Origin: Candidatus Nitrosocosmicus franklandus
GTDB lineage: Archaea > Thermoproteota > Nitrososphaeria > Nitrososphaerales > Nitrososphaeraceae
Assembly: GCF_900696045.1 (NCBI RefSeq)
Contig: NZ_LR216287.1
Coordinates: 2,647,854-2,711,853 of the forward strand
DNA: 64,000 bases
Direction of reading: 5' to 3'
Part shown: positions 441 through 10,984 of the stretch, piece after piece
Layout: each line of letters begins with the position of its first letter
How positions within the stretch are numbered: position 1 is the stretch's first letter
The notes under the pieces: generated by a model
Databases searched by the model: none
What the model saw: only the letters and a program-made list of their open reading frames with translations
Told to the model about the DNA's origin: nothing
Position numbers and translations under genes: made by a program

Positions 441-600
441 TTGTAAGGAATGTGACGCAGAGATTACAATTCCAGCAGACTCGATGCAAGGCGAAATTGT
501 CACTTGCCCGGATTGTGGTGAAAGCTTTGAATTGGTTAAATCCGGAGAGGAATTCAGCATCAAACCTGCACAAGTAGTTGGAGAAGATTGGGGACAGTAA
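427..600 (+). CDS. lysW: Amino-group carrier protein LysW
   Basis: This encodes a 57-residue acidic protein with two zinc-binding pairs, CKEC (residues 6-9) and CPDC (27-30), and the tail VVGEDWGQ. LysW is the scaffold protein of the archaeal/Thermus lysine (and arginine) pathway: the amino group of aminoadipate or glutamate is coupled to the side-chain carboxylate of its C-terminal Glu, and the downstream enzymes act on the protein-bound intermediate. It overlaps lysS by 14 nt and lysX by 13 nt, so the operon is tightly coupled. The odd feature is the last residue: codon CAG (Gln) stands where the family has Glu in the EDWGE tail. The identity of the protein is very likely; the meaning of the Gln is open. 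Confidence 0.92.
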   Translation: MSKVNCKECDAEITIPADSMQGEIVTCPDCGESFELVKSGEEFSIKPAQVVGEDWGQ

Positions 601-2720: not shown

Positions 2721-3833
2721 ATGCTCTACATCATTGGAATTGGGATATCTGAGTTTGAATCCTTGACGATAAATTCCCTAGAGGTTATAAAGAAATGTGA
2801 TGATGTATACCTAGAAAGATTCACCGGTTTCATTTCAGATGAATTCATAAAGAAACTTGATGAAGAAATAGGCAAGACTTCAAGAAGAAATGATTCTGGC
2901 ACTACAGTTGGAATAAAAATTGTTAAACGGTGGTTTATAGAAGACGGGAGGGAAATTCTTCAAAAAGCTCGATTGTCTGATATCTGTATACTAGTATACG
3001 GGGATCCGTTAATAGCAACTACTTATAACGAATTACTTGTCAGGGCAAAAAAAGAGACCGTGAAAGTTTGTGTCATTCATTCGTCATCGGGGATTCTCTC
3101 ATTGATCGGTGAATCTGGTCTGCAACCATACAAATTTGGCAAAATGGTAACTATGATGGACGATCCTATGTCATCAATTACTGTATATAATACCATTTAC
3201 GATAACATGTGTAATGGTCTCCATACACTTGTGCTGACAGAATACAATAATGATGATGGACATGCTAACTCTAATTATAATTCTGATCCATTCTTTTTGT
3301 CCCCGAAAAGAGTTATAGAACTTTTATTAGAGAGAGAAAAGGAAATGAAATCTCTAAACTTTTCGCTCGATACTTATGGGCTGGTGGCAAGTAAAATTGG
3401 CGAAACGAATTCCGTTGTCTTGGCCGGAAGAATGGAATCGTTATTGGAATTGGATTATCAGGGGGGTCCAAACTCTGTAATTATTCCGGCATCCTTACAC
3501 TTTACGGAGGAAGAATACATCATAAATTTAACTAAAATGCTAGATCCTCCAACAGACAATACCAAACATCTTTCTCGTCTAGCAACTCGTATGCTAGATA
3601 AATATATTCCAAACGCAAAGCTAGCATTGTCGAATTTGAATGCTATAATTAATTCTGAAATACCCGAGCTGACGAGGGATTATCAACTGGTATTGGAAAA
3701 TGCAGAAAACTATCTAAGGGATGCACAAACATTTTACAACCAAGGTAAATTAGAATTAGCGATATTGAGCATCGGTTATGCCGAGGGATTGATTGATGCA
3801 ATTAGATTTCAAAAAAACTTGAATCCATGGTAG
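2721..3833 (+). CDS. dphB: Diphthine synthase DphB fused to a DUF357 domain
   Basis: Residues 1 to about 265 are a tetrapyrrole-methylase-fold S-adenosylmethionine-dependent methyltransferase. Motifs include MLYIIGIGISEFESLT, VYGDPLIATTY and SSGILSLIGESGLQPYKFGK, all typical of diphthine synthase, which methylates the modified histidine of elongation factor 2. The usual length is about 260-270 residues; this one has about 100 extra. The C-terminal part (about 275-370, ending QGKLELAILSIGYAEGLIDA) is a helical DUF357 domain, a small archaeal domain often encoded next to dphB. ATG start with a TATA-like AT-rich upstream region. Confidence 0.9.
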   Translation: MLYIIGIGISEFESLTINSLEVIKKCDDVYLERFTGFISDEFIKKLDEEIGKTSRRNDSGTTVGIKIVKRWFIEDGREILQKARLSDICILVYGDPLIATTYNELLVRAKKETVKVCVIHSSSGILSLIGESGLQPYKFGKMVTMMDDPMSSITVYNTIYDNMCNGLHTLVLTEYNNDDGHANSNYNSDPFFLSPKRVIELLLEREKEMKSLNFSLDTYGLVASKIGETNSVVLAGRMESLLELDYQGGPNSVIIPASLHFTEEEYIINLTKMLDPPTDNTKHLSRLATRMLDKYIPNAKLALSNLNAIINSEIPELTRDYQLVLENAENYLRDAQTFYNQGKLELAILSIGYAEGLIDAIRFQKNLNPW

Positions 3834-10042: not shown

Positions 10043-10984
10043 ATGCATTGCCTTAGGTATTTCACTATCTTTATTCTCTTATTACCTCTGATCTTTGTAT
10101 CACCAATTTCCAATTCTTTCCAAGCAACACTTGGACAAGAAAAGTTTCCTAACTTGATTACTCCATCAAATAGCACCTGCTGCAAAAATGAAACAAGCTT
10201 CTCCAATACTCAACCTCTATCTTCGAATTCTGAATCGACTCCACTCAAAGTAATTAGCACACAAGATAAAAATCCTCAAGGTAAAGCTAATGAATCAAAT
10301 ACTACAAAATCATTCGCATCTCTTGAACCTCAGTCCGCTGAGGAATCCTCCTCCACTCTTGCAGGTCCTTTGAAAAAGATGGATGCCAATAAAAATAATA
10401 TAATCACTCCTGCAAACAGCTTCTCCAATACTCAACCTCTATCTTCGAATTCTGAATCGACTCCACTCAAAGTAATTAGCACACAAGATAAAAATCCTCA
10501 AGGTAAAGCTAATGAATCAAATACTACAAAATCATTCGCATCTCTTGAACCTCAGTCCGCTGAGGAATCCTCCTCCACTTTTAATACTGTGAATCATTTG
10601 AGCAACATAAACACTAATGACTTTGACTCTTTAACAAACACCTATCCTGCACATTCTACTCCTATCGAGACTAATTCAGGTGAAGAAGATAACGAGGACT
10701 CTAATCTTTCACAAGATATCCGGAATAATTTAAACAAGTTACTTCATACTGATACTGTTACTGAATCAAGTAGCGATGAATCAAGTAGCGATGAATCAAG
10801 TAGCGATGAATCAAGTAGCGATGAATCAAGTAGCGATGAATCAAGTAGCGATGAATCAAGTAGCGATGAATCAAGTAGCGATGAATCAAGTAGCGATGAA
10901 TCAAGTAGCGATGAATCAAGTAGCGATGAAAGCAATCTTGAGTTAGAAGAATTGCGCTCGATGATAAGTAAGATATTCTCTTAA
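10043..10984 (+). CDS. Secreted low-complexity protein with SSSDE repeats
   Basis: A 313-residue protein with a signal peptide (hydrophobic FTIFILLLPLIFVSPIS, about residues 7-23) and no later membrane helix. The mature part is rich in Ser, Thr, Asn and Gln. It carries two nearly identical copies of a 54-residue block (starting SFSNTQPLSSNSES), then an acidic tract of eleven SSSDE units, and ends with a short helix-like LELEELRSMISKIFS. No enzymatic domain is visible. Such Ser/Asp-rich tracts are known in surface proteins as flexible, often cation-binding or modified stalks. Function unknown; cell-surface or extracellular matrix role is inferred. Confidence 0.75.
   Translation: MHCLRYFTIFILLLPLIFVSPISNSFQATLGQEKFPNLITPSNSTCCKNETSFSNTQPLSSNSESTPLKVISTQDKNPQGKANESNTTKSFASLEPQSAEESSSTLAGPLKKMDANKNNIITPANSFSNTQPLSSNSESTPLKVISTQDKNPQGKANESNTTKSFASLEPQSAEESSSTFNTVNHLSNINTNDFDSLTNTYPAHSTPIETNSGEEDNEDSNLSQDIRNNLNKLLHTDTVTESSSDESSSDESSSDESSSDESSSDESSSDESSSDESSSDESSSDESSSDESSSDESNLELEELRSMISKIFS
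10196..10579 (+). repeat. 162-bp direct duplication inside the secreted repeat gene
   Basis: The blocks 10196-10357 and 10418-10579 (offset 222 bp) are identical or nearly so at the DNA level, starting AGCTTCTCCAATACTCAACC and ending CTCCTCCACT. They are separated by a 60-bp unique spacer. Identity at synonymous sites indicates a recent duplication or ongoing gene conversion. Confidence 0.9.
10763..10927 (+). repeat. Perfect 15-bp tandem repeat, 11 copies (GAATCAAGTAGCGAT)
   Basis: Eleven uninterrupted identical 15-bp units encode (E)SSSD repeats in frame. No unit differs even at silent positions, which points to recent slippage expansion. Copy-number changes would keep the frame and only lengthen or shorten the acidic tract. 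Confidence 0.95.

Follow-up and report, generated by a model that had tools for sequence, protein, structure and literature searches.

A LysW carrier protein encoded with a terminal glutamine in Nitrosocosmicus and other ammonia-oxidizing archaea, and a possible conversion to glutamate before charging

The window, a stretch of 64,000 nucleotides from Candidatus Nitrosocosmicus franklandus (NZ_LR216287.1, positions 2,647,854 to 2,711,853), begins inside a gene cluster for lysine and arginine synthesis on the amino-group carrier protein LysW. The following features at its beginning are relevant here.

3-440, +: 3′ end of a homocitrate-synthase-like gene, directly upstream of lysW and running off the window start
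427-600, +: lysW, a 57-aa Zn-ribbon amino-group carrier protein (NF041070, PF21344)
583-600, +: EDWGQ motif and stop, GAAGATTGGGGACAGTAA (pattern match G000:C1:2648436-2648453)
595-597, +: last codon CAG, encoding Gln in place of the Glu of characterised LysW proteins (direct sequence; CAA or CAG in relatives)
588-1469, +: lysX, an ATP-grasp ligase (TIGR02144, 318 bits against a cutoff of 275.6)
1479-2618, +: lysK-type M20 hydrolase (TIGR01902, 281.7 bits against a cutoff of 163.1)

The lysW frame (427-600, +) is translated into MSKVNCKECDAEITIPADSMQGEIVTCPDCGESFELVKSGEEFSIKPAQVVGEDWGQ, followed by the stop codon. Its product carries a zinc-binding CxxC...CxxC ribbon (CKEC...CPDC) and is scored at 86.2 bits by NF041070, the NCBIfam model of the archaeal LysW/ArgW carrier (cutoff 75), in an alignment that extends through the last model position, while its match to PF21344 (46.5 bits) is the sole Pfam LysW match genome-wide. 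The protein also has the EDWG motif of LysW/ArgW and is encoded next to a ligase with the GSWGR motif and the rest of the cluster; in place of the substrate-bearing terminal Glu of this family, it has Gln. As the original prediction had noticed, the 3′ end reads GAA GAT TGG GGA CAG TAA, that is, EDWGQ with the TAA stop at 598-600. The accompanying claim that known LysW proteins end in Glu agrees with the solved chains 3vpb and 3wwl, and with the EDWGE ends of LysW from T. thermophilus, S. acidocaldarius and T. kodakarensis (PMC10433800). Since the terminal residue is encoded as Gln, the γ-carboxylate that carries the substrate is absent from the protein as translated. Does the genome encode another carrier? 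Profile search of the 2,836,447-base single-contig genome gave one LysW copy, and neither this search nor a genome-wide search for the tail pattern found a second, Glu-tailed LysW, so no intact copy of that form exists elsewhere in the genome. The other Gln-pattern match in the genome is followed by TGG and not by a stop codon, and was discarded as a LysW tail.

The lysX frame overlaps the lysW tail, and its exact start is uncertain. Its product contains GSWGR, for LysW recognition, and NNTTEFKN, the signature of the α-aminoadipate (AAA) type, and has 3vpd, 5k2m and 3vpb as relatives in the PDB. The lysK-type product retains the His/Asp/Glu motifs of the metal site (GHMD, ASD, DEEG, GEPS, PHSSHT); with NF003367, the model of [LysW]-lysine hydrolase, it scores 275.9 bits, which is below the cutoff of 363. 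The truncated homocitrate-synthase-like gene is complete in L101 (15068-16294, cluster c8), and the genes upstream of lysW are arranged as argG-argX-lysY-lysZ-lysJ followed by homocitrate synthase. Directly after lysK lies a diphthine synthase gene (2721-3833, +; TIGR00522, residues 1-271), the product of which is extended C-terminally by about 100 aa. This neighbour of lysK recurs in Nitrososphaeraceae and Nitrosopumilaceae and not in Nitrosocaldus, where it is not adjacent to the Gln-tailed lysW, and it was therefore rejected as a gene linked to the Gln tail. Further downstream, a 313-aa open reading frame (10043-10984, +) has a hydrophobic, secretion-like N-terminus and long tandem repeats of SSDE type around 10750-10950.

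The Gln tail is not peculiar to this genome and is wider than the original prediction could see. Comparison of related genomes, which it had proposed, revealed a conserved Gln form: all 15 genomes of the genus Nitrosocosmicus have the Gln tail and none has the Glu tail, and the terminal codon is CAA in most of the relatives read and CAG in the genome of the window. Within the order, EDWGQ followed by a stop-like codon was found by pattern search in 200 of 300 genomes. Counted from the table, these belong to the families f1 (66/70), f2 (6/7) and f9 (128/132), which are families of ammonia oxidizers and carry amoA, and the same search gave none in 91 genomes across the other 14 families. Nitrososphaeraceae and Nitrosopumilaceae have Gln tails as a rule, on one or both carriers. 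The tail marks ammonia oxidation only in part, because f3 and f2/g41 have amoA yet Glu tails, and because further families of the phylum, outside the order, have some Gln tails as well. A constraint at the DNA level from the overlap of lysW and lysX is also unlikely, as both Gln codons are used and the GTGA overlap formed by CAG TGA would arise equally from GAG TGA.

In the order, the usual gene order is argG, lysW-A, argX, lysY, lysZ, lysJ, an Lrp-type regulator gene, homocitrate synthase, lysW-B, lysX and lysK. A published signature, of Gly type in ArgX and of Asn-Thr type in LysX, distinguishes the two ligases; here it reads NNTVEFRG and NNTTEFKN, respectively. The tails of the two carriers are combined as follows.

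Nitrosopumilaceae and Nitrosocaldus: lysW-A Glu, lysW-B Gln
Genera g2, g4 and g9: lysW-A Gln, lysW-B Gln
Genera g5 and g6: lysW-A Gln, lysW-B Glu
Genus g3: lysW-A Glu, lysW-B Gln
f3, f2/g41 and the clusters of non-ammonia-oxidizers of the order that were read: lysW-A Glu, lysW-B Glu

A role of the tail as a label for the lysine or the arginine carrier was rejected, since the assignments are swapped among genera. In the mixed clusters of Nitrosopumilaceae and several Nitrososphaeraceae, a single LysZ-LysY-LysJ-LysK set stands beside a Glu-tailed and a Gln-tailed carrier. Nitrosocosmicus has lost lysW-A, with argG overlapping argX (L101 10456-10469; also L162), and has kept ArgX; the single Gln-tailed LysW must therefore be the carrier for both routes. 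The reverse is found in G246, which retains only a Glu-tailed lysW-A, with LysX still present. In this genome, the frame upstream of lysX, at the expected place of lysW-B, runs through repeats rich in Arg, Gly and Ala (L160 730-3021, -). In genus g8 (G125), both lysW-A and argX are missing from the interval between argG and lysY, and this double absence suggests that LysX may be bifunctional there. In genus g47, a second Gln-tailed LysW is located away from any ligase gene (G084, L119 7433-7603, -; G251, L164 430-593, +).

Can a carrier with such a tail be dispensable? Neither ArgJ nor DAP epimerase was found in the genome of the window and seven other Gln-tail genomes (eight searched). Where a single Gln-tailed carrier accompanies both ArgX and LysX and these two enzymes are not found, the carrier must be functional. 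The importance of the terminal residue is known from Natrinema, in which replacing the last residue of ArgW, Glu, by Ala abolishes arginine synthesis and makes the cell an arginine auxotroph (PMC10433800).

Outside the order, the Gln pattern was met in 15 sampled genomes of the phylum, 14 of which have true LysW tails according to reading of the loci; the match in G327 is not a LysW. The true tails belong to families f25, f30, f48 and f51 and lie mostly inside complete Lys/Arg clusters, and most other sampled families of the phylum have Glu only, as do the plasmid LysW proteins of bacteria (5/5). Even sister genomes differ: in f25/g99, G409 and G429 have Gln and G355, G389 and G434 have Glu, and in f48/g115, G417 has Gln and G382 has Glu. 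On the ligase tree, a quick one without bootstrap, 12 switches between Glu and Gln are required and at least 8 of them are forced by starred, well-supported branches, so that an encoded terminal Gln is interchangeable with Glu among relatives, as in Pup. Nitrosopolaris and G162/G294 show nested changes from Gln to Glu. Among 131 distinct LysW/ligase entries, every tail is either Glu or Gln, in a set biased by the many entries fetched with Glu/Gln patterns; a tail restricted to Glu and its isosteric amide is what would be expected if the γ-carbonyl must be kept.

If the tail has changed so often, have the enzymes acting on it changed together? No column of LysX, LysK, LysZ, LysY or LysJ tracks the tail consistently over 8 Glu/Gln contrasts, which have limited power, and GSWGR is retained in 34 ligases on the Gln side and 33 on the Glu side. 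The lone strong tail-tracking position of LysX was discarded, as it is the LysX frame reading across the lysW tail codon. Differences on the ArgX side are confounded, because most Gln tails on that side belong to one family. No cluster gene separating Gln from Glu lineages was seen in the clusters read. Dop/PafA (PF03136) is absent from the 8 Gln-tail genomes, with a positive control, and no dedicated deamidase was found.

The free exchange of Glu and Gln without enzyme change, the shared enzymes and the functional Gln-tailed carrier are most simply explained by a conversion before or during charging, and the downstream set shared in mixed clusters, together with the lack of a tail-tracking position, speaks for Gln being converted to Glu prior to charging. 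We infer that LysW is probably first translated as an inactive precursor with the Gln tail, LysW-Q, and that hydrolysis of the side-chain amide on its terminal Gln would yield Glu; LysX and ArgX would then charge the γ-carboxylate with α-aminoadipate or glutamate, and LysZ, LysY, LysJ and LysK would complete the synthesis of lysine and of ornithine/arginine on the charged LysW. Deamidation resembling that of Pup had been raised in the original prediction and fits the comparative evidence best, although no homologue of Dop/PafA is present. Which enzyme might remove the amide? LysK, besides its role as [LysW]-Lys/Orn hydrolase, would be the natural and most economical, if unproven, candidate, since it cuts an amide at the same γ-carbonyl, just as Dop combines deamidation of PupQ with the removal of Pup from substrates. 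Against this counts that, if an ordinary LysK sufficed, Gln would be expected to be tolerated in every LysW lineage, while most families have Glu only. A separate deamidase is equally possible.

The main rival to deamidation of a precursor is direct transamidation, because it ends in the same conjugate. LysX or ArgX would activate the Gln amide itself: its oxygen would be phosphorylated by ATP and ammonia displaced by the amino acid, and no deamidase would be needed. Such activation of the amide oxygen by ATP has been proposed for PupQ in Dop, where it was likened to argininosuccinate synthesis (PMC8599861). This chemistry would explain the shared downstream enzymes and the free Glu/Gln switching just as well, but new leaving-group chemistry might leave a mark on the ligase, in which no position tracks the tail. 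Since, in addition, we know of no ATP-grasp ligase that uses an amide acceptor in this way, we consider it unlikely. The ligase might instead charge the α-carboxylate of the terminal Gln and not its side chain. The ligase is a member of the RimK family (TIGR00768 match), and RimK itself acts on the α-carboxylate of S6. In that case any terminal residue would do, yet Glu and Gln alone are seen; the downstream enzymes are common to Glu-tailed carriers in the mixed clusters, and reversions from Gln to Glu have occurred without consistent ligase change, so that charging at this site is quite improbable.

Alternatively, the Gln codon might sometimes be read as Glu. Archaea form Gln-tRNA indirectly, by amidation of Glu-tRNA(Gln), and leakage of the unamidated form could give a small, recycled pool of LysW-E, which might be enough for a catalytic carrier. 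Such misreading would hold for all archaea, yet most families keep Glu, and retention of Gln in ammonia oxidizers would be left unexplained; its probability is very low. We give slightly less weight still to another role for the Gln-tailed LysW, which the original prediction had also allowed, as a regulator or a remnant and no carrier. Two-copy genomes in which the other copy is Glu-tailed do exist, but the cluster LysW of Nitrosocosmicus, f25 and f30 is the Gln form, with neither ArgJ nor DAP epimerase found, and in Nitrosocosmicus it is the sole carrier available for both lysine and arginine. The lysine-side carrier of f1/g5 and g6 is Glu-tailed, so that there is no fixed division of roles. 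Finally, GAG and CAG differ by one base, and a sequencing or assembly error had accordingly been listed. With Gln kept through the whole genus by two codons, and conserved in hundreds of genomes from independent assemblies, this explanation is practically eliminated.

The pathway described here shares the Zn-ribbon, the EDWG tail, the adjacent LysX with GSWGR, the LysY/LysZ/LysJ/LysK cluster and the dual use for lysine and arginine with the LysW/ArgW pathway of Thermus, Sulfolobus, Thermococcus and haloarchaea (3vpb, 3wwl, 5k2m), and differs from it by the terminal Gln as encoded. With the Pup system of actinobacteria it has in common a small modifier ending in Gln or Glu according to species; Dop deamidates PupQ in the species encoding it and also depupylates (PMC8599861), so that one hydrolase cuts the γ-amide there, while deamidation is what we infer here. 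Here, in addition, there is no Dop/PafA homologue, the ligase is of ATP-grasp type, and the purpose is biosynthesis rather than degradation. For Nitrosopumilus maritimus, LysW (Nmar_1287), which adjoins ArgX (Nmar_1288), was proposed to act in both arginine and lysine synthesis (PMC6038301). As far as the accessible part of that paper goes, its model has one LysW, the tail residue of which is unmentioned, whereas in the Nitrosopumilaceae read here the carrier beside ArgX ends in Glu and the one beside LysX in Gln. No earlier mention of EDWGQ was found in the literature searched, most subscription journals being outside its scope, and the accessible portions of papers on LysW of ammonia oxidizers do not discuss the Gln tail.

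Ammonia-oxidizing archaea are among the most abundant archaea on Earth. Published LysW charging chemistry requires a terminal Glu, and in most of these organisms at least one carrier is encoded with Gln; some have the Gln form only. With a carrier encoded with Gln at the substrate-bearing position, a step that makes it chargeable, most likely amide removal, seems to be absent from the pathway as known: either the pathway map lacks a deamidase, or the ligase performs new chemistry. Metabolic models of ammonia-oxidizing archaea currently assume a ready-to-charge carrier. It may well be, with about an even chance, that the LysW pathway of ammonia oxidizers and several other families of the phylum contains an extra maturation step, carried out by LysK or another archaeal protein deamidase, which could serve as a control point for lysine and arginine synthesis. 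If true, it would be a second, non-homologous instance of the PupQ-to-PupE logic.
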